A DNA stretch of 64,000 bases, from contig NZ_FQYY01000005.1 in assembly GCF_900141885.1 (NCBI RefSeq), positions 1 to 64,000 on the forward strand. Reading direction: 5' to 3'. The translations under genes were made by a program, and so were the position numbers. Positions 14,600-26,192 of the stretch are shown one piece after another (positions within the stretch are counted from its first letter, which is position 1; every line of letters starts with the position of its first letter). Under the pieces are notes generated by a model. The model was not told the origin of the DNA. It saw nothing but the letters and a program-made list of their open reading frames with translations, and made no database searches. The DNA comes from Mesonia phycicola. Its GTDB lineage: Bacteria; Bacteroidota; Bacteroidia; Flavobacteriales; Flavobacteriaceae.

Positions 14600-15592
14600 T
14601 TATAATTCTTGTACTAATAACCAAGCTTCTTGGTTTTCGGTAGATTTGATAGTTCTTAAAGTTTCTAAAGCTTGTAAACGATCTTCGTGGCTGCTATAAA
14701 TTACTTGGTGTAAACCATATTTGTTAGTGCCAATTTCGCGAGCATTAAACCCTTTTTGTATTAATTGCTCAACTTTTTTTGCAGCATTTTCTTTCTCTCT
14801 AAATGCTCCTGCTACAATATGGTAATTACCGTTTTCTCTAGCCACTTTAAAAGTAACTTCTGGTAACGGATTGCTAATCATAAAAGTAGCTTCTTGTATT
14901 TGAGACTCTATTTGCTGTTCTGCTTTTTGTTGCTCTGCAATATTATGCTCTTCAATAGTATTTACATAATAGTTAGAACCTAATAAACCTGCAATACCTA
15001 AAGCAATAACACCTACTGCAGCATATCGCCATATTGGAGTTTTGTTTTGCTCTTTCTCTTCTTCTACTGCTGAAATTTCTTCAGAAATAGTAGAGGTGTC
15101 ATTTTCTTTTTCTGAAGCGATAGTTTCTTCAACTTTAGCTAAAACATGAGCCACTTCTTCTACAATCTCTTCTTCTCTTTCTATAACTGGTGAAGTAAAA
15201 GTAGATAGCCCAAACGATTCTGCTAAATAGTTATTATGGTAAAAAGGTTGAAATAAAACCTTACCTTCTTCTAAAGAAAAAGTTCCTATTTCTTTTAAAA
15301 CAATTTCTTGATAAGCGTTAAGGGTAGATTGTAGTTCTTGTACAAATAAAACTACTTTTTCACTTGCTTCGCTGTAAGAAATATTTTCTGCCTTAGCAAT
15401 ATAGTTAGTAAGCACACCATCATTTTCTGATAGTTGCTTATTAAAAGAAATTACTTTTTTTGGCGGATAAAAAGCGTGGGTAGTTTCATGAATTTCTGCT
15501 GATTTACGTTGTGCTAAAAAAGCACCAAAACCAGGCATTACTACGCACTCGTAACGATATAATAATTCTTGTAAGTATTGTTCTACTCTCAT
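14600..15592 (-). CDS. HU-like domain / transmembrane / SPOR-domain protein
   Basis: A 330-residue protein with three parts. Residues 1-125 resemble the HU/CCDC81-like DNA-binding fold of Bacteroidota (MPGFGAFLAQRKSA, later LKEIGTFSL). Residues 135-185 are an acidic, low-complexity linker. A single transmembrane helix lies at 188-208 (YAAVGVIALGIAGLLGSNYY). Residues 255-330 form a SPOR domain (HIVAGAFREKENA...), which binds denuded peptidoglycan at division sites. The N-terminus would be cytoplasmic and the SPOR domain periplasmic. It is divergent from dprA. A link between nucleoid and septum is a reasonable inference, but the HU-like part may serve in protein contacts instead. Confidence 0.85.
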   Translation of the reverse strand: MRVEQYLQELLYRYECVVMPGFGAFLAQRKSAEIHETTHAFYPPKKVISFNKQLSENDGVLTNYIAKAENISYSEASEKVVLFVQELQSTLNAYQEIVLKEIGTFSLEEGKVLFQPFYHNNYLAESFGLSTFTSPVIEREEEIVEEVAHVLAKVEETIASEKENDTSTISEEISAVEEEKEQNKTPIWRYAAVGVIALGIAGLLGSNYYVNTIEEHNIAEQQKAEQQIESQIQEATFMISNPLPEVTFKVARENGNYHIVAGAFREKENAAKKVEQLIQKGFNAREIGTNKYGLHQVIYSSHEDRLQALETLRTIKSTENQEAWLLVQEL

Positions 15593-15597
15593 AAATT

Positions 15598-15605
15598 CAA
15601 AGTTA
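15598..15605 (-). promoter_or_regulatory. -7 box of the HU-like/SPOR gene
   Basis: TAACTTTG on the minus strand; its last base is only six bases from the ATG at 15592. The predicted transcript would start at or next to the start codon and be leaderless or nearly so. Confidence 0.45.
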
Positions 15606-15691
15606 ATTTTTTTTGAGATTTTATGAAATTCAAACTTCAGATTTTATTAACAAATCTTTTTCTCTATTTTTAAAGATATATATTCTTTATA

Positions 15692-16789
15692 ATGAGTGAG
15701 TCAGAGTTAATTTATTTGTTAGCATTACAACGAATACCTAATGTAGGTGATATAACTGCAAAGAAATTATTGCTTCATTTTGGCTCTGCAGAAGAAATTT
15801 TTTGTGCAAAAAAGTCTACAATTTTAAACGTAGATGGTATTGGAGAAAGAACTGCCAAGCTATTAGATTTTTCTACCTATGAGCGAGAAGTTTTACAAGA
15901 ATTAAGTTTTATAAAAGACAATAATATACAGGTTACCTATTTTCAAGAAAACAATTACCCAGAAAATTTGAAGCATTGCATAGATGCTCCCGTTTTACTT
16001 TTTCAGAAAGGAAATATAGATTTACAGCAAAAAAAATTACTAAGTATTGTTGGTACTAGAAAAGTAACTAATCACGGTATTGCATTTTGTGAGCAATTAA
16101 TAGAAGAATTGGCGCCGCTTAACCCTGTTATTATTTCTGGTTTTGCTTACGGTGTAGATATTTGTGCCCATAAAAGTGCATTAGCAAATAATTTGCAAAC
16201 CATAGGTTGTTTAGCGCACGGTTTAAATCAGATCTATCCTAAAGTGCACAAGAAATATGAAGCTGAGGTAATGAAAAATGGAGGTTTTTTAACCGATTTT
16301 TGGAGTGATGCAAAATTTGATAGAAAGAATTTTTTAAAAAGAAATAGAGTAATAGCAGGTCTTAGTCAAGCTACTTTAGTGATAGAAAGTGCAGAGAAAG
16401 GAGGCTCTTTAGTAACTGCAGATATTGCAAATTCTTATAACCGAGAAGTTTTTGCAGTGCCAGGAAGATCTACAGATTTATTGAGTAAAGGTTGTAACAA
16501 TTTAATAAAGCAACAACAAGCACAAATGATTACTTCTGCAGCAGATCTTATTTATTATTTAGGTTGGGAAGTAGAAGAAAAGAAACCACAACAAACACAA
16601 TTATTTGTCAACCTTTCTATAGAAGAAGAAAAAATATTATCCAAATTGAAAGAGCTTGGTAAGGTAGAGCTAGATATTTTAGCTTTAGCATGCCAAATGC
16701 CAACTTTTGAAATAACAAGCCACTTATTAAGTCTTGAATTAAATGGTCTGGTAAGACCGTTACCAGGAAAACAGTTTGAAGCTATATAA
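15692..16789 (+). CDS. dprA: DNA-processing protein DprA
   Basis: Loads RecA onto incoming single-stranded DNA during natural transformation. The 365-residue protein has an N-terminal helix-hairpin-helix region (RIPNVGDITAKKLLLHFG, 14-31), the Rossmann-like DprA core with SIVGTRKVTNHG and SGFAYGVDICAH, and a C-terminal winged-helix part (around 300-360). This is the common Bacteroidota layout. It is divergent from the HU-like/SPOR gene. Other competence genes are absent from the window. Confidence 0.95.
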   Translation: MSESELIYLLALQRIPNVGDITAKKLLLHFGSAEEIFCAKKSTILNVDGIGERTAKLLDFSTYEREVLQELSFIKDNNIQVTYFQENNYPENLKHCIDAPVLLFQKGNIDLQQKKLLSIVGTRKVTNHGIAFCEQLIEELAPLNPVIISGFAYGVDICAHKSALANNLQTIGCLAHGLNQIYPKVHKKYEAEVMKNGGFLTDFWSDAKFDRKNFLKRNRVIAGLSQATLVIESAEKGGSLVTADIANSYNREVFAVPGRSTDLLSKGCNNLIKQQQAQMITSAADLIYYLGWEVEEKKPQQTQLFVNLSIEEEKILSKLKELGKVELDILALACQMPTFEITSHLLSLELNGLVRPLPGKQFEAI

Positions 16790-16851
16790 TTTTATATACA
16801 ACTGTTGTTTTTAAGTTTTTAAAAACTATTTTTGATTTTAAACAATTCAAG

Positions 16852-17442
16852 ATGAAAAAAATATTCTTTTTACTCAGCTTAATTTTATTTAATTCAAGTT
16901 TAATAGCTCAAAACGAAATAGAAACTTTAGAAAGTGTAGAGTCTTCTATTTTTGGTGTTCAAGCGGGTTTTTTAGGAGTTTGGGTAAATAATGAAGCTAA
17001 AATATCTAATACTATTGCACTAAAAACAGAGGTTGGTTTAGACGCAGCTCTTTTTGGTGGTAGTATTTATTATGAAGAAGATGAGGTAAATTATGCATTT
17101 GCACCCGTAATTACTGCAGAACCTCGATGGTATTATAATATAAGTAAAAGAGCAAATAAAGGTAAGAGAACAGCTAAAAATACTGCAAACTTTGTAGGGC
17201 TTGAGGTAAGTTATAATCCTAATTTATTTGTAATTTCTAATGTAGATGTAGATGTGTATAACCAAATAAGAATAATACCTAAATGGGCAATTAGAAGAAC
17301 CATTGGTAATCATTTTACTTATGAAACAGGATTAGGTTTGGGTTATCGTAGAGCTTTTTTCGATGAGTCTGATTATCTTTTTCCTCCAGATAAAGGCGAA
17401 GTGATTTTAGATTTACATATTAGGTTAGGTTATACATTTTAG
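16852..17442 (+). CDS. Small outer-membrane beta-barrel protein
   Basis: A 196-residue protein with a signal peptide (MKKIFFLLSLILFNSSLIAQ, cleaved after the last residues). The mature part alternates polar and hydrophobic residues in short strands (IALKTEVGLDAALFGG, FTYETGLGLGYRRAFF) and ends in an aromatic residue (LHIRLGYTF), as outer-membrane barrels do. About eight strands are likely. It lies alone after dprA, 62 bases away, and before a terminator. Function unknown. Confidence 0.8.
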   Translation: MKKIFFLLSLILFNSSLIAQNEIETLESVESSIFGVQAGFLGVWVNNEAKISNTIALKTEVGLDAALFGGSIYYEEDEVNYAFAPVITAEPRWYYNISKRANKGKRTAKNTANFVGLEVSYNPNLFVISNVDVDVYNQIRIIPKWAIRRTIGNHFTYETGLGLGYRRAFFDESDYLFPPDKGEVILDLHIRLGYTF

Positions 17443-17468
17443 CAGTAAATTACCGCCTGCAGATAGGT

Positions 17469-17505
17469 AACAAAAATGGCAGCTTTTTTAAGCTGCCTTT
17501 TTTGT
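17469..17505. terminator. Bidirectional terminator
   Basis: GGCAGCTT and AAGCTGCC pair around TTTT, and the flanks AACAAAAA and TTTTTTGTT extend the stem. It separates the barrel-protein gene from the convergent trpS. Confidence 0.9.
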
Positions 17506-17519
17506 TATAGAAATAAAGA

Positions 17520-18491
17520 TTAGTAACCTAATTTTGTTCGAACACGGTCTAAAACATCGTTAGCTACTTTTCTAGCTTTTTCAGCTCCCTTTTCTAAAGC
17601 AGCATCTACTTCTTGAAGGTTATTCATATAATAATGGTAAAGCTCTCTTTCTTTCGCATATTTTTCAACTAAAAGCTCGTATAAAGCTTGTTTAGCATGA
17701 CCATAACCATAATTTCCGCCTAAGTAATTTTTGCGCATTTCTGCGGTTTGTTCTTCCGAAGCAATAATTTTATAAAGATTAAATACATTACAAGCATCTG
17801 GATCTTTAGGTTCTTCTAGCGGGGTGCTATCGGTTTGAATACCCATCACTTGTTTTCTTAATTTTTTATCTGGTAAAAATAAATTGATAAAGTTATCACG
17901 AGATTTACTCATTTTCTCTCCGTCGGTTCCTGGAATGTATTTTGAGTTTTCTTCAATTTTAGCTTCTGGCAATACAAAAACATCTTCACCCATTTGTGCG
18001 TGAAAACGAGAAGCAACATCACGTGTCATCTCAATGTGTTGTAATTGATCTTTGCCTACCGGAACAAATTCTGCATCATAAGCCAAAATATCTGCCGCCA
18101 TTAACATGGGGTATGTAAAAAGCCCAGAGTTTACATCGGCTAAACGATCTGCTTTATCTTTAAATGAATGCGCAAGCGTTAATCGTTGATACGGGAAAAA
18201 GCAACTTAAATACCAAGAAAGTTCGGTTACCTGTGGTACATCACTCTGTCTATAAAAAACTGTTTTTTCGATATCTAAACCAAAGGCCAGCCAGGTTGCC
18301 GCCACAGAATAGGTGTTTTCTCTTAAAGTGGGAGCGTCTTTTATTTGCGTAAGCGTATGCAAGTTTGCAATAAATAAAAAAGATTCGTTATTAGAATCGT
18401 TTGCCATGTTGATGGCAGGAATAATGGCTCCTAGTAAGTTTCCTAAGTGTGGAGTTCCTGTACTTTGTACTCCTGTTAGTATTCTAGACAT
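17520..18491 (-). CDS. trpS: Tryptophanyl-tRNA synthetase
   Basis: Charges tRNA-Trp with tryptophan. The 323-residue class I synthetase has the HIGH-type motif PHLGNLLGA (14-22) and the KMSKS motif in GEKMSKSRDN. GVQSTGTPHLG is the family N-terminus, and the mid part has VGKDQLQHIEMTRD, the tryptophan pocket and dimer region. Normal length for the bacterial enzyme. Monocistronic between a terminator and the divergent plsC. Confidence 0.97.
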   Translation of the reverse strand: MSRILTGVQSTGTPHLGNLLGAIIPAINMANDSNNESFLFIANLHTLTQIKDAPTLRENTYSVAATWLAFGLDIEKTVFYRQSDVPQVTELSWYLSCFFPYQRLTLAHSFKDKADRLADVNSGLFTYPMLMAADILAYDAEFVPVGKDQLQHIEMTRDVASRFHAQMGEDVFVLPEAKIEENSKYIPGTDGEKMSKSRDNFINLFLPDKKLRKQVMGIQTDSTPLEEPKDPDACNVFNLYKIIASEEQTAEMRKNYLGGNYGYGHAKQALYELLVEKYAKERELYHYYMNNLQEVDAALEKGAEKARKVANDVLDRVRTKLGY

Positions 18492-18549
18492 TTTAAATAA
18501 TTTTTTTGTAAAGGTAAATGTTTTATCATTTTCAAAGCATACATTTTAT

Positions 18550-18557
18550 TACTTTTG
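18550..18557 (+). promoter_or_regulatory. -7 box of plsC, very close to start
   Basis: TACTTTTG fits TAnnTTTG and ends eight bases before the plsC ATG at 18565, so the predicted transcript would be nearly leaderless. No convincing -33 element. Confidence 0.4.
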
Positions 18558-18564
18558 AATTCTT

Positions 18565-19305
18565 ATGAGCTTTTTTAGAAAAATTTTAATCACATTATGG
18601 CGAGTATGGTTTTACATACTTATGGCTGTGCCTATAATTATTATGTTTCCGTTATTGCTATTGTTTACGGCAAAAGAGAAATATTATCCGCAGTTTTTCT
18701 ATTTAGCTAGATTTTGGGCAAAAATTATTTTATACGGAATGGGCTTTTACCCTAAGGTGAAAAAGCTACAAATACCTGATAGAAATAAAAGCTATATGTT
18801 TATAGCAAACCATACTTCTATGACGGATATTATGTTGATGCTACTTATTATTAAAAATCCGTTTGTTTTTGTGGGAAAAAAAGAGCTTTCTAAAATTCCT
18901 ATTTTCGGATTTTTCTATAAACGTACTTGCATTTTGGTAGATAGAGCAAATGTAAAAAGCAGAAAAGAAGTTTTTGAACAAGCGCAAAGAAGATTAAACC
19001 AAGGAGTGAGTATTTGTATTTTTCCGGAAGGAGGAGTGCCAGACGATGAGTCTGTTTTATTAGATAATTTTAAAGATGGAGCTTTTAGATTAGCTATAAC
19101 TCATCAAATACCTATTGTACCATTGGTTTTTTACGATAATAAACAACGATTTTCTTATACTTTTATGAGTGGTAGCTTAGGAATAATGCGAGCTAAAATT
19201 TTACCTTTTGTATCTACCAAAAATTTAGAACAACAAGATAAACGAAAACTAAAAGAAGAAATTAGGCAATCTCTATTAAAAGAGTTATTAGAAAATAAAC
19301 TTTAA
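18565..19305 (+). CDS. plsC: 1-acyl-sn-glycerol-3-phosphate acyltransferase (PlsC family)
   Basis: Acylates lysophosphatidic acid to phosphatidic acid at the inner membrane. The 246-residue protein has an N-terminal hydrophobic helix (about 10-35), the catalytic H83-x4-D88 motif (NHTSMTD) and the substrate-binding FPEGG segment. Related acyltransferases act on ornithine lipids or other acceptors, so the exact acceptor is inferred. It is divergent from trpS and convergent with the barrel-protein gene at 19326, with only 20 bases between them and no visible terminator. Confidence 0.88.
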   Translation: MSFFRKILITLWRVWFYILMAVPIIIMFPLLLLFTAKEKYYPQFFYLARFWAKIILYGMGFYPKVKKLQIPDRNKSYMFIANHTSMTDIMLMLLIIKNPFVFVGKKELSKIPIFGFFYKRTCILVDRANVKSRKEVFEQAQRRLNQGVSICIFPEGGVPDDESVLLDNFKDGAFRLAITHQIPIVPLVFYDNKQRFSYTFMSGSLGIMRAKILPFVSTKNLEQQDKRKLKEEIRQSLLKELLENKL

Positions 19306-19325
19306 ATTTTCACAGCGTTTTTATT

Positions 19326-20954
19326 CTAAAATTTAAAACTAAACCCAGTATACACACCAAAGAAATAAGGCTTAAAATTGTTAATGTTATTATTATAGGT
19401 GTTAAGTTGATATTTAAAAGTAGGCTCTAAATTTAAATCGAAACTTTTACTTAAACTATAATCAAAACCTAGCCCAACGTTAGTGGTAAAACTTACCTTA
19501 TTAAGGTTGTTAGCTTCACCTAAAGATAAATGACTGTCTTGAGAATTTATATAAACATCGTTATCGTTTAAAAACAGGGTACTTGCTCCTCCAATTATAT
19601 TCACGCCAAAACGTTTGTCTATTAAAGCGTACTCAATTTCAACAGGTACTTCTAAATATCCTAATTGTTGGTTTAAAGCTCCTTCAGTAAAAGATGAATT
19701 TGTACTTCTGTCAAACTCACCACTGCTTATAGTTGTTGGTTTTGGTGAGCTATTATCAAGACTAATTATTTCAATTGTCTCGTTAGAAGGTGTAGTAGTA
19801 ATACCCTCTAATTGTATAGAGTTAACTCCTGCAGAATAAGCAATATTGTTTACATTATAGCTCATGTTAACTTTACTAACACCAGATCTTACTTTAAATT
19901 TTTCTGAAATTGCATAAGCAAAATTCACCCCGTAAGCCATAGTGATATTACTCTCACTAGAGTTGCTAGCAAGGCTTTTATCTATATTGTTACCTCCGTT
20001 TAAGCTACTGTAATAGATAGGAGAAACATTTGGTTTTATTAACCATTTAGATAAGTTTGTTTCCTCATTATCATCATCATTTTTATTGAGCTTTTCTTCT
20101 TCAATTTTTTTAGCTTCTTCTACCAGAGATTTTTTTTGATTTAATTCTTCTTCTAAAATTTCTTCACTATTGAGCTTTTCTTCTGAATTATTTTTTTCTA
20201 CAGAAACAATTGCAGAGTTGTCTTTACTTGAAGTTGAATTATTTTTATTTTCTTCTGTTGAAATCTGATTGTTTTTACCAAAAATTTTCTCTTTTTTATT
20301 TACAGATTCTGCAACTAACGATTTATTTGTGTTGCTTGTATTTATTTCTTCATTTTGTTTTTTGTTTACAGCAAGCTTCGTTGCAGAAGAAGATTTTTTA
20401 TTGGTGTGATTTAAACTTTCTGAAGTAGATATGCTTGAGTTTTTAGGCGAAGAAACAAGTTTGCCTGTAGAGGTTGAGTTCGCTTTTAGTGCAGGTTTTT
20501 TATCACTACTAACTAAAGATTTTGCATTGTTGTTAGTGATAGAAGGCGTATTTTTTTCTGAATTTAAAGTATTGTTTTTTATAATAGGCGTTGTTGTGTT
20601 TTCTTCATTTACATAAGATTTATTAGTATTTATACCATCTATGGGGTTATTTTCTGTATTGGTAAATGGTTTATCTGCTTTTTTTATGTTTTTAGGAGAA
20701 ATGGTAGTATTCTCTTTTGTATTTACCACCTTGGTATTATTGTTTGTAGGCAAAATAAAATTTGCCGCTAAAAATATAATAGCCAATACAGCTGCAACTC
20801 CAGCAGCTTTATACCACCAAAAAGGAATGACTTTTTTGTCTTTCTTTTTTTGTAATTCTTGCTCTATATTTTTCCAGACATGGTTTTTGGGAGCAGCTTC
20901 AAAATCTTTGAAACTTTCCTGAAAGAGTCTGTCTATTTTTTTCTTTTCTTTCAT
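19326..20954 (-). CDS. Putative anti-sigma-like/outer-membrane barrel hybrid
   Basis: A 542-residue protein of unusual layout. Residues 1-46 are charged and helical (FQESFKDFEAAPKNHVWKNI), like the cytoplasmic tail of proteins encoded beside ECF sigma factors. Residues 48-68 form one transmembrane helix. Residues 70-300 are a low-complexity linker rich in Lys, Asn, Ser, Thr and later Glu. Residues about 301-542 read as an outer-membrane beta-barrel ending in phenylalanine (YTGFSFKF). The start overlaps the end of the sigma-factor gene by four bases. It could therefore reach from cytoplasm to outer membrane and control the sigma factor. The anti-sigma role is inferred from position and layout only. 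Confidence 0.8.
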   Translation of the reverse strand: MKEKKKIDRLFQESFKDFEAAPKNHVWKNIEQELQKKKDKKVIPFWWYKAAGVAAVLAIIFLAANFILPTNNNTKVVNTKENTTISPKNIKKADKPFTNTENNPIDGINTNKSYVNEENTTTPIIKNNTLNSEKNTPSITNNNAKSLVSSDKKPALKANSTSTGKLVSSPKNSSISTSESLNHTNKKSSSATKLAVNKKQNEEINTSNTNKSLVAESVNKKEKIFGKNNQISTEENKNNSTSSKDNSAIVSVEKNNSEEKLNSEEILEEELNQKKSLVEEAKKIEEEKLNKNDDDNEETNLSKWLIKPNVSPIYYSSLNGGNNIDKSLASNSSESNITMAYGVNFAYAISEKFKVRSGVSKVNMSYNVNNIAYSAGVNSIQLEGITTTPSNETIEIISLDNSSPKPTTISSGEFDRSTNSSFTEGALNQQLGYLEVPVEIEYALIDKRFGVNIIGGASTLFLNDNDVYINSQDSHLSLGEANNLNKVSFTTNVGLGFDYSLSKSFDLNLEPTFKYQLNTYNNNINNFKPYFFGVYTGFSFKF

Positions 20955-21496
20955 TGCGCTGTACTTGCGTTATTTTTATTAGAATGTTCTTCTACTTTTA
21001 CTTTCAAGATTTGCCTAGCTCTTGCTAAATTAGATTTTGAAGTACCCACAGTAATTTTCATCATCTCTGCAATTTCTTTGTGAGAAAATCCATCTAAAGC
21101 ATATAAATTAAACACCATTCTGTATCTATCTGGTAAATCTTGAATAATTTGTAGTAAAAAAGGAAGAGGTATTTGTTCTTCATCTATTTCGATGTCAGGC
21201 TCTTCTAAAGCTTGTTCGTCTATTATTTGAAATACATTTTGTTTTCTATAGCGTTGTAAAGAAGTATTAATAACAATACGTTTCATCCAACCTTCAAAAG
21301 ATCCTGTATTTTTGTATTGTTCTATTTTTTTAAAAATAGTTAAAAAAGCATCTTGTAAGTTATCTTCTGCTTCTTGGTAATTTCGAGAATATTTTAGGCT
21401 AACCGCAAAGAGTTTATTAGCGTATAGCTTATAAAGTTGCTCTTGCGATTTTAAATCTTGCTTTTTGCACTTTTGTATAAGTTGCTCAATACTCAA
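20951..21496 (-). CDS. ECF-family RNA polymerase sigma factor
   Basis: A 181-residue sigma-70-family factor with regions 2 and 4 only. Region 2 spans about residues 20-95 (LYANKLFAVSLKYSRNYQEA, then EDNLQDAFLTIFKKI) and region 4 about 115-170, including the helix-turn-helix DGFSHKEIAEMMKITVGTSK. It directs polymerase to a private set of promoters in response to envelope signals. Its stop overlaps the start of the membrane/barrel hybrid gene by four bases, so the two are translationally coupled. Promoter targets are not evident here. Confidence 0.93.
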   Translation of the reverse strand: MSIEQLIQKCKKQDLKSQEQLYKLYANKLFAVSLKYSRNYQEAEDNLQDAFLTIFKKIEQYKNTGSFEGWMKRIVINTSLQRYRKQNVFQIIDEQALEEPDIEIDEEQIPLPFLLQIIQDLPDRYRMVFNLYALDGFSHKEIAEMMKITVGTSKSNLARARQILKVKVEEHSNKNNASTAQ

Positions 21497-21509
21497 TTTA
21501 TACGTCTAA

Positions 21510-21932
21510 TTAGTTTACCCTAACAGGTATTTCTTTAATTAAATAAATATACTCCCCTACATCATCTATTCCTTGCCAAAATTTAAAAATATAATTGTCT
21601 TCTCTTAAAACTTCAAAAGGTAAAGTTTCAGACTCTATTTCTTCTTCTAGAGTTGTACAGTCGGTGTTTTCGTCGAAATAAACACTATTTACAACTGCTA
21701 TTACTCTAGTGTTTCCCTCTTGATTGTAATCAAAACCACTAAAAGTATGGCAAGTGGAAGGTTTTATATAAGAGATTTCAAAATCATATTGTTCTCCGTA
21801 ATCTAATGTATCAGGGATATTTACATTATTTACAGGAACCAATTCATAAGACAGATATTCTGTATCATTATCATCTAAATTACAACTTACTGCAATAATT
21901 GTTATTAAGATATATAATAAATATTTTTTCAT
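21510..21932 (-). CDS. Small lipoprotein of unknown function
   Basis: A 140-residue protein with a lipoprotein signal (MKKYLLYILITIIAVSC, lipobox AVSC, Cys17). Mature protein is acidic with three further cysteines (CHTFSGFDY, DCTTLEEE), possibly disulfide-bonded. No known domain is recognised. It lies 13 bases upstream of the ECF sigma-factor gene on the same strand, so it probably heads the transcript and could act with the sigma/barrel pair, for example as a sensor. This link is inferred from position only. Confidence 0.75.
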   Translation of the reverse strand: MKKYLLYILITIIAVSCNLDDNDTEYLSYELVPVNNVNIPDTLDYGEQYDFEISYIKPSTCHTFSGFDYNQEGNTRVIAVVNSVYFDENTDCTTLEEEIESETLPFEVLREDNYIFKFWQGIDDVGEYIYLIKEIPVRVN

Positions 21933-22013
21933 TTTTAATAATTAATTTAAAACTAAACTTAGTGGGGATGTGTTAATTAGATACAATTAAATGTAAATGG
22001 TTGCGTCTTAAAC

Positions 22014-22043
22014 AAAAAAAAACCTGCGAAAGCAGGTTTTTTT
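22014..22043. terminator. recA terminator
   Basis: AACCTGC-GAAA-GCAGGTT hairpin with a GNRA-like tetraloop, flanked by seven A on one side and seven T on the other. It lies downstream of recA and upstream of the lipoprotein-sigma transcript, both on the minus strand. Confidence 0.93.
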
Positions 22044-22063
22044 ATTAAAAATTTATTTTACGT

Positions 22064-23077
22064 TTAAGATTTTGCTAATTTAATAGCATCTGTAATCTTA
22101 GTTTCTAGTTCTTCCATTAATTCTGGATTGTCTTTTAGTAGAGTTTTTACAGCATCTCTACCTTGCCCTAATTTAGTGTCTTCATAACTAAACCAAGATC
22201 CGCTCTTCTTTACAATCTCATAGTCTACACCTATGTCTATAATTTCACCTACTTTAGAAACCCCTTCACCATACATAATATCAAATTCTGCAGTTTTAAA
22301 AGGCGGAGCAACTTTGTTTTTTACAACTTTTACACGGGTTTTGTTACCCATAACATCGCTGTTACTATTTTTAATTTGCGTAGATCTTCTAATATCTAAT
22401 CTAACAGAAGCGTAAAATTTAAGTGCGTTACCACCAGTAGTGGTTTCTGGATTTCCAAACATTACTCCAATTTTTTCTCTTAATTGGTTAATAAAAATCA
22501 CAGTACAATTAGTCTTGCTAATAGAAGCGGTAAGTTTTCTTAATGCTTGAGACATTAATCTAGCGTGAAGTCCCATTTTAGAGTCTCCCATTTCTCCCTC
22601 AATTTCACTTTTAGGAGTTAATGCAGCAACAGAATCTACTACTATAATATCTATTGCCCCAGAACGTATAAGGTTATCTGCAATTTCTAAAGCTTGCTCT
22701 CCGTGATCTGGTTGAGAGATTATTAAATTTTCAATATCTACTCCTAGCTTTTCAGCATAAAAACGATCAAAAGCATGCTCTGCATCAATAAATGCAGCAA
22801 TACCTCCAGCTTTTTGTGCTTCTGCAATAGCATGAAGTGTTAATGTAGTTTTACCAGAAGATTCTGGACCGTAAATTTCTATTACTCTACCTCTTGGGTA
22901 ACCGCCTACACCTAACGCTAAATCTAAACCAAGTGATCCAGATGATATTGCATCTACATCTTGCACTGCTTGATCACTCATTTTCATCACAGTACCCTTA
23001 CCGTAAGTCTTGTCTAATTTATCTAGCGTTAATTTTAACGCCTTTAATTTAGCTTCTTTCTCGTTGTCTTTACTCAT
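22064..23077 (-). CDS. recA: Recombinase RecA
   Basis: Forms filaments on single-stranded DNA for homologous recombination and SOS induction. The 337-residue protein has Walker A GPESSGKT (70-77), Walker [11 protein letters not shown], loop L1 near [16 protein letters not shown] and loop L2 at [17 protein letters not shown]. The length is normal. Monocistronic: a terminator lies directly downstream. No LexA-type box could be named with confidence in its upstream region. Confidence 0.99.
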
Positions 23078-23239
23078 ATCTTTAAAAGGCTTTCTTATTT
23101 CATTTGAAGAAATGCTAAAATACTACAAGTTTTTGTGATTTTGATTGGTCACGCAACCTTTTTTGTTTTTTTACATCTTCTTTATAGAAAGGATAATTTC
23201 ATGAAATATCTTAAGCAAAATATTATTTTAAATTCTATG

Positions 23240-23386
23240 AGCTCTACAATTACAGTAACTTACACTTGTAATTGTAAGCTTGACGGCGGTTAGCGTTATT
23301 GTTTTTTGAAGTAAAATTTAAAAAAATTAATAACGAATTAGCCGTTCGAAAAAATGCCTGAAAAAACTATTTTTCAGGCATTTTTT
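23240..23386 (+). ncRNA. Candidate structured small RNA ending in a terminator
   Basis: Three consecutive hairpins. The first has arms AGCT-C-TACAATTACA (23240-23254) and TGTAATTGTA-AGCT (23267-23280), 14 pairs with one bulge. The second pairs ACGGC...CGTTATT (23283-23300) with AATAACG...GCCGT (23329-23345) around an internal loop. The third is a strong terminator (23349-23386). A terminator upstream of trhO, facing away from recA, implies a short transcript ends here. No promoter box was found, and part of the second stem recalls the interspersed repeats (GCGTTA), so a repeat remnant is an alternative. Confidence 0.35.
23349..23386 (+). terminator. Strong terminator upstream of trhO
   Basis: AAAAAATGCCTGAAAAA and TTTTTCAGGCATTTTTT form a 17-base perfect stem around ACTA. 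It lies between recA and trhO, which diverge, so it has no obvious coding gene to terminate. Confidence 0.88.
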
Positions 23387-23399
23387 GTAGATAATGCTT

Positions 23400-23407
23400 T
23401 ATATTTG
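23400..23407 (+). promoter_or_regulatory. -7 box of trhO
   Basis: TATATTTG fits TAnnTTTG and lies 37 bases before the trhO ATG. The -33 element is not clear; the expected position falls in the preceding terminator stem. Confidence 0.45.
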
Positions 23408-23444
23408 CAGCTTAACTTTTGTTTAACTTATAAATTAGTATAGC

Positions 23445-24476
23445 ATGCAACTGTACAACAAATTAAGTGCAAAAGAAAGAGAAGCACTCTTAGAAGAAGC
23501 CGGGGAAGATAGGCTTACCATCTCTTTCTATCAATATGCCAAAATAGGAAATCCAGAACTTTTTAGAAATCATTTATTTGTTGCTTGGGATCAACTAGAT
23601 GTTTTAGGAAGAATTTATGTTGCCCACGAGGGGATTAATGCACAACTCTCTGTGCCAGCAAAAAAGTTTAATGATTTTAAAGAGTTTTTAGACGGCATAT
23701 ACTTTTTAAAAGATATAAGACTAAATATTGCAATAGAGCAAGATTTAAAATCTTTTTTAAAGCTGAAAGTGAAAGTAAGATCTAAAATTTTAGCAGACGG
23801 TTTAAACGATAAGAGTTTTGATGTTACTAAAAAAGGAGAGCACGTTAATGCAGAGAAATTTAATGAGCTTATTAGTGACCCAAATACCATATTGGTAGAT
23901 ATGCGTAACCATTATGAAAGTGAAATAGGTCATTTTCAAGGTGCAATTACTCCAGATGTAGATACTTTTAGAGATTCTTTAGATATTATAGAAGAAGATT
24001 TACAAGAACATAAAGAAGATAAAAACCTAGTAATGTACTGTACAGGTGGTATTAGATGTGAAAAAGCTAGTGCTTATTACAAACATAAAGGGTTTAAAAA
24101 TGTTTTTCAGCTTGAAGGGGGTATTATAGAATATACACGACAAGTAAAAGAAAAAGAGCTAGAGAATAAATTTATTGGTAAAAATTTTGTTTTTGATCAT
24201 CGTAGAGCAGAGCGTATCTCAGATGATGTAATTGCCCAATGTCACCAATGCGGTAAGTCCTGTGATGTACACGTAAATTGTGCTAATGAAGCTTGTCATT
24301 TATTATTTATTCAGTGTAAAGAATGTGCCGCTAAGATGGATAATTGTTGTTCAGATAATTGTAAAGAAATAAATGCTTTACCATACGAAGAACAAAAAGC
24401 ACTTAGAAAAGGAAAAAAGAATAGCAATAAGATTTTTAAAAAAGGAAGATCTGAAGTTTTAAAATTTAAACAATAA
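23445..24476 (+). CDS. trhO: tRNA uridine 5-hydroxylase TrhO, rhodanese family
   Basis: Hydroxylates uridine 34 of certain tRNAs to 5-hydroxyuridine using oxygen. The 343-residue protein has an N-terminal acylphosphatase-like part (SFYQYAKIGNPELFR...), a central rhodanese domain with the loop YCTGGIRCEKA, and a C-terminal cysteine-rich segment (CHQCGKSC, CKECAAK, CCSDNC) that could bind metal. This is the YceA/TrhO arrangement. A small membrane-protein gene follows after eight bases. Confidence 0.93.
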   Translation: MQLYNKLSAKEREALLEEAGEDRLTISFYQYAKIGNPELFRNHLFVAWDQLDVLGRIYVAHEGINAQLSVPAKKFNDFKEFLDGIYFLKDIRLNIAIEQDLKSFLKLKVKVRSKILADGLNDKSFDVTKKGEHVNAEKFNELISDPNTILVDMRNHYESEIGHFQGAITPDVDTFRDSLDIIEEDLQEHKEDKNLVMYCTGGIRCEKASAYYKHKGFKNVFQLEGGIIEYTRQVKEKELENKFIGKNFVFDHRRAERISDDVIAQCHQCGKSCDVHVNCANEACHLLFIQCKECAAKMDNCCSDNCKEINALPYEEQKALRKGKKNSNKIFKKGRSEVLKFKQ

Positions 24477-24484
24477 CTAGCAAG

Positions 24485-24832
24485 TTGATAAGCTCAGAAA
24501 ACATATCAAGTAGACAAAAAAGTCAAATAAGACTACTCGCCTTTATGGTGGGTAGTTTTATTTTGCTACTTGCTTTTTTAAATCTAGCAGTTTTGTTTTA
24601 TAAGTTTGATAACTTAGGCTCTTTTTATGAAACTAAACAAAGCTATTTAAATCACTTCCCTTTTTTTTTAAGAAACCCTTATATTATAAATGCAATAGCG
24701 TTAACAGGTTTAGTATTTGCTATGTTTTTCTTCAGACTTTCTGCAAAGCAAGATGAACTTAGATTTTTAAGTATTATAGGTATTATGGGTAATATTATTT
24801 TTATAGGAGCCAGTGTTTGGGTGATGTTATAA
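24485..24832 (+). CDS. Small three-helix membrane protein
   Basis: A 115-residue inner-membrane protein with three predicted helices at about 17-40 (LLAFMVGSFILLLAFLNLAV), 60-80 (IINAIALTGLVFAMFFF) and 93-115 (FLSIIGIMGNIIFIGASVWV). The proposed start is TTG at 24485, which keeps a hydrophilic 16-residue lead; the first ATG (24545) would begin inside the first helix. It is eight bases downstream of trhO and probably cotranscribed. No family recognised. Confidence 0.65.
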   Translation: MISSENISSRQKSQIRLLAFMVGSFILLLAFLNLAVLFYKFDNLGSFYETKQSYLNHFPFFLRNPYIINAIALTGLVFAMFFFRLSAKQDELRFLSIIGIMGNIIFIGASVWVML

Positions 24833-25013
24833 TTTTTGTAGCTAACTTTTCTAGAAAAAAAAGCATCTAAATTAGATAAATTTAGTTTTCTATCTCCCAT
24901 ACATTTTCCTTTCTCCTCACAATAAATTGGTATATTTACCCTTTAAATAAAGAATATTAATTTTTCAACACAGTAGTTTTTTTAACCTCTTGTGTTTCAA
25001 TATATATAATTTT

Positions 25014-26192
25014 ATGGCGTGTGGAAGTTGCTCGACCGGTAAAGACGGTCAGCCAAAAGGATGTAAGAGTAATGGTAATTGCGGTACAGATAGCTGCAAT
25101 AAATTAAGTGTTTTTGATTGGTTATCCAATATGTCACTTCCTGGTGGGGTAGAACCTTTTAATTACGTAGAAATTCGTTTTAAAAACGGAAGAAAACACT
25201 TTTTTAAGAATACAGAAAATTTAACGTTAAACATTGGTGATGTAGTGGCTACAGAGGCTTCTCCAGGTCATGATGTTGGAGTAATTACGTTAACAGGAGA
25301 ACTTGTAAAAGTTCAAATGAAAAAAAAGAAAGTAAAAAAAGATAGTGAAGAGGTAAAGAAAATTTACCGTAAGGCTAGCCAAAAAGATATAGATATTTGG
25401 CAAGAATGTAGAGAGAGAGAAGAAACCATGAAGGTTACTGCTCGTGAAATTGCAATTAAGCTAAAATTAAAAATGAAAATTAGCGATATTGAATTTCAAG
25501 GAGACGGTTCTAAAGCTACTTTTTACTACACAGCAGAAGATCGAGTAGATTTTAGACAATTAATTAAAGAATTTGCAAGAGAGTTTAAAACAAGAATAGA
25601 AATGCGCCAAATAGGCTTTCGTCAAGAAGCCGCTAGATTAGGTGGTATTGGTTCTTGTGGTAGAGAATTATGTTGTTCTACTTGGCTTACAGATTTTAGA
25701 TCTGTAACTACTTCTGCAGCAAGATACCAACAGTTATCTTTAAACCCGCAAAAGCTTGCAGGGCAATGTGGTAAACTAAAGTGTTGCTTAAATTATGAGT
25801 TAGACGCATATTTAGACGCTTTAAAAGCCTTCCCAAGGCAAGATGTAAAACTACAAACTCAAAAAGGAAGAGCTGTTTGCCAAAAAATAGATATTTTTAA
25901 AGGTAGTTTATGGTATGCTTACGAAGGTGAGTGGATGAACTGGCACGAGCTTACAACAGATCAAGTACAGCAAATTATAAAAGCATCTAAAGCAAAAAAA
26001 CCAGTTGCTAGTTTAGAAGAGTTTGCAGTACAGCATCAAGCAGAAGAAAGTGCAGATTTTGGAGATGTAGTTGGGCAAGATAGTTTAACTAGATTTGATA
26101 AGCCTAAAAACTCAACTCAGGCCAATAAAAAACGAAGAAGAAAGAAAAGAAATCATAAACCAAGAAGTAAAAAACCTAATAATAATGCATAA
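25014..26192 (+). CDS. ricT: RicT/PSP1-domain protein (Fe-S regulatory complex subunit)
   Basis: A 392-residue member of the PSP1/RicT family; in Bacillus, RicT works with RicA and RicF in an iron-sulfur complex that promotes RNase Y processing. The N-terminus is cysteine-rich (ACGSCSTG, GCKSNGNCGTDSC). The PSP1 domain (about 160-280) has CGRELCCSTWL and GQCGKLKCCLNYE, the four-cysteine cluster region. The C-terminus is basic and low complexity. I chose the ATG at 25014 (MACGSCS) over a longer TTG frame. Its end overlaps gldH by eight bases, an order common in flavobacteria. Confidence 0.9.
   Translation: MACGSCSTGKDGQPKGCKSNGNCGTDSCNKLSVFDWLSNMSLPGGVEPFNYVEIRFKNGRKHFFKNTENLTLNIGDVVATEASPGHDVGVITLTGELVKVQMKKKKVKKDSEEVKKIYRKASQKDIDIWQECREREETMKVTAREIAIKLKLKMKISDIEFQGDGSKATFYYTAEDRVDFRQLIKEFAREFKTRIEMRQIGFRQEAARLGGIGSCGRELCCSTWLTDFRSVTTSAARYQQLSLNPQKLAGQCGKLKCCLNYELDAYLDALKAFPRQDVKLQTQKGRAVCQKIDIFKGSLWYAYEGEWMNWHELTTDQVQQIIKASKAKKPVASLEEFAVQHQAEESADFGDVVGQDSLTRFDKPKNSTQANKKRRRKKRNHKPRSKKPNNNA

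Follow-up and report, generated by a model that had tools for sequence, protein, structure and literature searches.

FecI/FecR/FecA-type systems comprise an ECF sigma factor, a membrane anti-sigma factor, and an outer-membrane sensor. Another kind of regulator, the Dma/Reo proteins, is also known and was described in 2022-2026 for gut Bacteroidales. Anti-sigma factors spanning both membranes have already been published for P. vulgatus (PMC9308784) and, as Dma1-3, for B. thetaiotaomicron (PMC13088901), and in both species loss of the anti-sigma factor turns the regulon on (PMC9308784, PMC13088901). The same literature places nigD1 of B. thetaiotaomicron under the control of Dma1 and not of Dma2 (PMC13088901), and three nigD genes of P. 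vulgatus under the control of EcfO (PMC13114119); the trigger of the Dma/Reo proteins is still called unknown there (PMC13088901, PMC13114119). No paper on a form of this system from Flavobacteriaceae, on its promoter, or on its regulon was found, which is weak evidence, subscription papers being mostly outside the search.

Organization of the locus

The window analyzed here, that is, the whole 64,000-nucleotide stretch of Mesonia phycicola DNA (contig NZ_FQYY01000005.1, positions 1 to 64,000), contains an ECF sigma factor gene followed by the gene of a 542-aa protein, which, judged by its anatomy, is an anti-sigma factor of the Dma/Reo type, all of the anatomical features tested being present. 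The sigma gene (20951..21496, minus strand) encodes 181 aa and has a TTG start; with an in-frame stop four codons before it, no ATG, GTG, or TTG is available further upstream. Its product matches the Pfam domains Sigma70_r2 and Sigma70_r4_2 (5.5e-14 and 1.8e-16), corresponding to regions 2 and 4, and clears the general sigma70-ECF cut-off (85 vs. 42.9 bits); its score for the Bacteroidetes subfamily TIGR02985 is below the cut-off (92.3 vs. 126.4 bits). The anti-sigma gene (19326..20954, minus strand), identified from its open reading frame, homologues, and structural model, has an ATG start and a product with the C-terminus GVYTGFSFKF. The two genes overlap by the four bases ATGA, and the open reading frame list reproduces this overlap as reported in the initial annotation. 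In Pfam the 542-aa protein has no match above the cut-off: OMP_b-brl scores 16.9 vs. 28.7 bits, and the one further match is at chance level.

The FecIR reading of the pair was rejected, as no FecR or TonB-receptor match was found in the 542-aa protein in Pfam and NCBIfam at E up to 1. Nor does a receptor-sized gene adjoin the pair, because the 542-aa gene is itself the longest open reading frame overlapping positions 15000-26000.

A lipoprotein gene (21510..21932, minus strand) precedes the sigma gene, with 13 bases between the two; its product has NLDDND after the lipobox Cys17, and a homologue is found upstream in 64 of 80 loci (the best 80 of at least 510 relatives). This lipoprotein may serve as an additional sensor, as the initial annotation proposed. 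Its identification as NigD was rejected. None of the 32 members scanned matches NigD in Pfam, where the commonest match is the lipobox (7/32) and the others occur in one or two members; the NigD profile match of this lipoprotein is due to the signal peptide alone and is gone for the mature part. The best match of the lipoprotein to solved structures has E 0.1.

The pair is accompanied by recA, dprA, and genes for an acyltransferase, a tRNA synthetase of class I (Trp/Tyr type), and a rhodanese-type protein. A 196-aa protein with a signal-peptide-like start is encoded between the synthetase gene and dprA (16852-17442, plus strand); it is present in some relatives and is without a Pfam match above the cut-off. 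The same genome has a second sigma/anti-sigma pair of 192 and 441 aa (L058, G000:C15), whose similarity to the pair studied here is weak.

Predicted domain architecture of the anti-sigma factor

The AlphaFold2 model of the 542-aa protein, built from a 26-row alignment, divides it into four parts. Residues 1-44 (20823..20954, minus strand) form a charged tail, the proposed sigma-binding domain according to model and alignment, with helices at residues 7-16 and 24-35; the tail is followed by a single membrane helix at residues 45-67 (20754..20822, minus strand), preceded by a Lys-rich stretch on the tail side. The initial annotation had a charged N-terminal tail and a single helix at 48-68, close to the modelled position. 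Next comes a low-complexity linker, residues 69-303 (20046..20750, minus strand), estimated previously at about 230 residues and here measured at 235, of which 72% are K/N/S/E/T/D; its residues 69-274 are modelled as disordered, with pLDDT below 50 almost throughout. Finally, residues 304-542 (19329..20045, minus strand) are predicted to form an outer-membrane-type barrel with a C-terminal Phe, whose eight long strands lie within residues 304-541 and have pLDDT mostly about 90 or more. The whole model has a mean pLDDT of 62.5 and a pTM of 0.47, both pulled down by the disordered linker.

Conservation follows the same division. Compared with 25 relatives, the window protein shows a mean identity of 59% for the tail, 49% for the barrel, and 18% for the linker, whose length ranges from 103 to 234 residues among the 26 sequences and whose sequence varies freely, and the C-terminal residue is Phe in 80/80 loci of the best 80 of at least 510 relatives. 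The higher identity of the tail and the barrel than of the linker, together with the invariant terminal Phe, indicates that the layout is not due to chance.

In the barrel model the turns after strands 2, 4, and 6 consist of 4, 2, and 4 residues, and the loops after strands 1, 3, 5, and 7 of 19, 47, 15, and 11 residues, three of these loops containing a short extra strand. This pattern matches that of outer-membrane barrels, so both ends of the modelled barrel probably face the periplasm, and it fits the need of a tether coming from the inner membrane to have both barrel ends in that compartment. Foldseek comparison with solved structures places outer-membrane barrels on top (Ail, OmpA, OprG, OmpT, OmpW, and NspA); the eight-stranded ones (Ail, OmpA, OprG, OmpW, and NspA) have E from 4e-7 to 8e-6 and target-normalised TM-scores of just about 0.5-0.65, and larger barrels (OmpT, NalP, and FadL) match the C-terminal model as well. 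As sequence identities are about 10%, these matches speak for the fold and not for kinship. An ordinary one-membrane anti-sigma factor with a soluble periplasmic beta domain at its C-terminus would be consistent with the OMP_b-brl score below the Pfam cut-off, but the strand count, the loop pattern, the final Phe, and the solved-structure matches all fit an outer-membrane barrel, which makes such a protein very improbable. The initial annotation proposed a barrel-like C-terminal domain ending in Phe and named structure prediction as its check; the eight-stranded model, which looks unlike a soluble domain, the Foldseek matches, and the Phe in 80/80 loci are in agreement with that proposal. The proposal that a single polypeptide joins a putative sigma-binding tail to an outer-membrane sensor is well supported, as none of the tests run on it refuted it.

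Possible sigma binding by the N-terminal tail

The sigma and anti-sigma genes share a reading frame in 18 of 80 loci (the best 80 of at least 510 relatives). For 16 of these 18 loci, read-through chains were derived by reading the intergenic TAA as Gly, each chain consisting of the sigma factor and anti-sigma residues 1-75. The model of one such chain (L089, 77 rows) has a pTM of 0.74, and the successive 10-residue blocks of the tail have pLDDT 69, 91, 94, and 80; the corresponding values of the window protein modelled by itself are 61, 66, 78, and 61. The co-model represents the protein of another species with a deeper alignment, and since species and alignment depth differ between the two models, this rise in pLDDT is merely suggestive. 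The best solved matches of the L089 chain are the sigma factors of the SigW-RsiW, SigE-RseA, and AlgU-MucA complexes. Sigma factors bound to anti-sigma factors rank above most of those bound to RNA polymerase, the aligned part being the sigma chain only. As the co-model suggests, the tail of the 542-aa protein may hold the sigma factor.

Linkage to the sigma gene across genomes

Among 40 related genomes, M. phycicola included, 28 matched the anti-sigma factor at E <= 0.001, three of them weakly. The sigma gene adjoins the anti-sigma homologue in 31 of the 32 loci fetched (31 from relatives, including paralogues, and the second pair of the same genome); the exception starts near a contig end. 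A search of the genome collection confirmed at least 510 relatives. In the best 80 of these, the sigma gene is directly upstream in every case (80/80), at a distance of -31 to +105 bases (most commonly -4), RecA is found in 79/80, and a PlsC-type acyltransferase in 77/80. At the level of the class, a profile search matched 151 of 247 genomes, a count that takes in short barrel-less relatives and single-domain matches; the 29 loci taken from the best class-wide matches all have the sigma gene upstream (29/29). Within Flavobacteriaceae, 125 of 149 genomes have an anti-sigma match at E <= 1e-10. The initial annotation had named homologues without any sigma gene as evidence against its proposal. 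None was found in the three sets of loci examined (31/32, 80/80, and 29/29), apart from the lone exception near the contig end.

The short relatives L061-L063 (228-238 aa) and L169 (279 aa) have the tail and the membrane helix with no room for a barrel, and by this the two halves of the protein look modular. These relatives, in which the tail can work without a barrel, bear on another explanation, namely that the linker is normally cut to yield a free barrel and a separate tail/helix anti-sigma factor, the signal being transmitted by regulated proteolysis and not through a continuous tether. The linker itself, with its 235 residues modelled as disordered and its 18% mean identity, would be an easy protease target. 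Against such cutting, a long open frame ending in Phe is retained in all of the best 80 of at least 510 relatives, and the linker is at least 103 residues long in the 26 sequences, as a physical tether would need. We consider such cleavage doubtful, if still a serious alternative to the continuous two-membrane protein preferred here.

Candidate promoter of the operon

A predicted autoregulatory ECF promoter, ACGCAACC-N15-TATCTA, is located between recA and the operon (21978..22006, minus strand). To our reading of the literature searched, where it was not found, the promoter-like element ACGCAACC-N15-YATCTA is new. In the 81 operon loci formed by the best 80 of at least 510 relatives and the window, the looser core GCAAC(C/T/A)-ATC(T/C) occurs at one spacing (N16) in 79, with a spacer one base shorter in one further locus, and only as a variant in L126; the strict form CGCAACC-N16-ATCT occurs in 72. 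Conservation of the motif ahead of the operon would be consistent with autoregulation.

Reversed patterns served as the control for genome-wide counts. In 16 Mesonia genomes, GCAACC-N15-YATCTA has 58 sites vs. 4 for the reversed pattern. The longer form ACGCAACC-N15-YATCTA is present in 22 of the 40 related genomes, all of which have the anti-sigma gene, and its reversed control in none; three of the 40 (G004, G018, and G026) have the anti-sigma gene without the longer form, one of them, G004, carrying three copies of the shorter pattern. Across 149 family genomes, 282 sites of the longer form were found in 104 genomes vs. 1 site of the reversed pattern; 44 of the 149 have three or more sites, and some up to eight. 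Motif and anti-sigma gene are both present in 103 of these genomes, the gene alone in 22, the motif alone in 1, and neither in 23 (Fisher 1e-13, not corrected for kinship and genome size). Genomes lacking the gene are mostly small, so genome size and kinship partly confound this association. In G103, the only genome with the motif alone, a distant Dma-like pair is present, and about 1.9 kb separates its anti-sigma match from the site upstream.

No such element was detected in the bases searched upstream of the second pair of M. phycicola (L058) or upstream of the paralogues L056 and L060. More distantly, 6 of the 29 class loci (L146, L147, L149, L151, L167, and L169) have GCAACC-CATC variants no more than 300 bases upstream of the sigma gene, some with spacers one base longer; most of the other 23 class loci have no GCAACC-CATC variant, and several of these had little upstream sequence.

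We infer that the sigma factor of the pair reads ACGCAACC-N15-YATCTA. The assignment of the motif draws on position and co-occurrence alone, up to eight sites occur in some genomes, and related sigma genes are present in the same genomes, all of which would also agree with recognition by another sigma factor, for which the dual-spanning pair is merely one target. Yet the motif stands ahead of the operon in 80 of 81 loci, in one of them with a spacer a base shorter; it is absent from 23 of the 24 genomes lacking the gene, the 24th being G103 with its distant Dma-like pair; and its GCAACC-CATC variants lie near the sigma genes of 6/29 distant class loci. Recognition by a different sigma factor is for these reasons improbable, and we retain the cognate sigma factor as the reader of the motif.

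A second promoter-like copy, in which the next base is T and not A, is located at 23151..23178 (plus strand), divergent from recA. It is followed after 22 bases by a conserved open reading frame for a 30-residue peptide, MKYLKQNIILN...CKLDGG (23201..23293, plus strand). Of 106 loci, with some genomes counted twice, 24 have an open reading frame of the 30-residue type, and at least two sites are present in 59. For 14 distinct DNA versions encoding 30 residues, the ratio of nonsynonymous to synonymous rates is 0.27 (0.26 if the odd L041 is left out), a value that favours translation of the peptide. A known RNA family near recA was rejected, all Rfam matches in 21900-23500 being below the gathering scores, and the feature at 23.2 kb is accordingly read as a small peptide gene.

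Promoter sites were also seen to adjoin genes of DNA repair, namely recA (22064-23077 in the window; 79/80 loci of the best 80 of at least 510 relatives) and, downstream of some Mesonia sites (L213, L221, and L247), genes that we take to be MutS2-like and UvrC-like.

Predicted regulon

Of the 58 Mesonia sites, 36 were fetched, the other 22 being at the recA locus. An open reading frame starts within 60 bases of 25 of the 36, and 13 of these 25 encode products that satisfy a simple lipoprotein rule (at least two acidic residues among the eight following the lipobox Cys); eight of the 36 sites are inside long open frames and look like chance occurrences. The first genes downstream encode lipoproteins of several families and a family-2 glycosyltransferase (10 proteins were scanned against Pfam), and an operon of a lipoprotein and a barrel follows a Mesonia promoter site, also in M. 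phycicola itself. A 57-aa single-helix protein is encoded 28-30 bases 3' of the element at L247 (G000:C37:68392), L213, L222, L236, and L241; the gene after it is, in several Mesonia genomes, presumably MutS2-like.

Sixty further sites in 23 genomes were hand-picked among the sites listed, at a distance from the anti-sigma gene and regardless of the product; one of them (L300) is the recA-divergent site. At 47 of the 60 an open reading frame starts within 60 bases, and 38 of these 47 encode lipoproteins with acidic signals, compared with 4 of the 53 window open reading frames of at least 130 aa (Fisher 1.5e-14). In a second background set, which holds the operon lipoprotein many times, 138 of 1253 satisfy the rule. 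Five of the nine first genes failing it look like lipoprotein genes by eye. Acidic signals after the lipobox send lipoproteins to the cell surface.

The regulon lipoproteins L212, L223, L232, and L237, to whose family L280, L286, L310, and L328 belong by eye, match the small NigD_C lipoproteins L175 and L176 (hhalign probability 95.8). The latter two clear the Pfam NigD_C cut-off and match full NigD (hhalign 94.4). The relation to NigD is indirect, since direct comparison of the L212/L223/L232/L237 family with full NigD gives hhalign 0.1, from profiles of two to four sequences, and Pfam assigns no family to the three members scanned.

Proposed mechanism and comparison with known systems

Taken as a whole, the observations are very probably best explained by a two-membrane anti-sigma factor that releases a sigma factor acting on its own promoter and on a lipoprotein regulon. 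The tail would keep the sigma factor at the inner membrane, and a change at the outer membrane, which might be ligand binding to the long barrel loops, disturbance of the barrel, or cleavage in the linker, would set it free. The freed sigma factor would then use ACGCAACC-N15-YATCTA to raise its own operon, with the lipoprotein, sigma, and anti-sigma genes, and also a small regulon in which genes for lipoproteins with acidic signals of the surface-export type are frequent. The entire system may in this way watch over the outer membrane and remodel the cell surface. Matches in 125/149 Flavobacteriaceae and 151/247 class genomes lend weight to the idea that single proteins carrying signals across both membranes, from the surface to the cytoplasm, are widespread. 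The promoter would offer a ready reporter for use in free-living marine bacteria, and the surface lipoproteins of the predicted regulon point to what the cell may produce in response.

Like FecI/FecR/FecA, the Mesonia system has an ECF sigma factor, a membrane anti-sigma factor, and a putative outer-membrane sensor, but here the sensor is predicted to be fused to the anti-sigma factor. It shares with Dma1/Das1 and Dma2/Das2 of B. thetaiotaomicron an anti-sigma domain, a membrane helix, a disordered tether, a barrel, and an adjacent ECF sigma gene (PMC13088901). The same source lists the own operon of Dma2 among its strongest targets (PMC13088901), and in Mesonia the motif is found ahead of the operon. 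Unlike those pairs, to which it is likened by anatomy, the Mesonia pair is linked to recA, belongs to an operon that begins with a lipoprotein gene, and has a predicted regulon of surface-type lipoproteins.

The anti-sigma factor of the EcfO/Reo systems of P. vulgatus and B. fragilis is similarly predicted to reach across the periplasm to a barrel in the outer membrane (PMC9308784, PMC13114119). The EcfO/Reo regulon, as given there, includes NigD lipoproteins and a glycosyltransferase gene of the LPS region, and the system is described as probably answering envelope stress (PMC9308784, PMC13114119). In contrast to EcfO/Reo, the Mesonia pair comes from a different order and family with different neighbours, and its link to NigD is indirect, via NigD_C profiles. 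The predicted Mesonia regulon likewise has NigD_C-like lipoproteins and a family-2 glycosyltransferase. On balance we favour, with some reserve, the broader proposal that throughout Flavobacteriaceae one polypeptide reaching from the cytoplasm to the surface is the dedicated switch, via ACGCAACC-N15-YATCTA, of its own recA-linked operon and of a regulon of NigD_C-like and many other surface lipoproteins with acidic signals, some barrels, and micropeptides of 30 and 57 residues. If so, gut Bacteroidales and marine Flavobacteriia would have this surveillance of the outer membrane and its NigD-type output in common.
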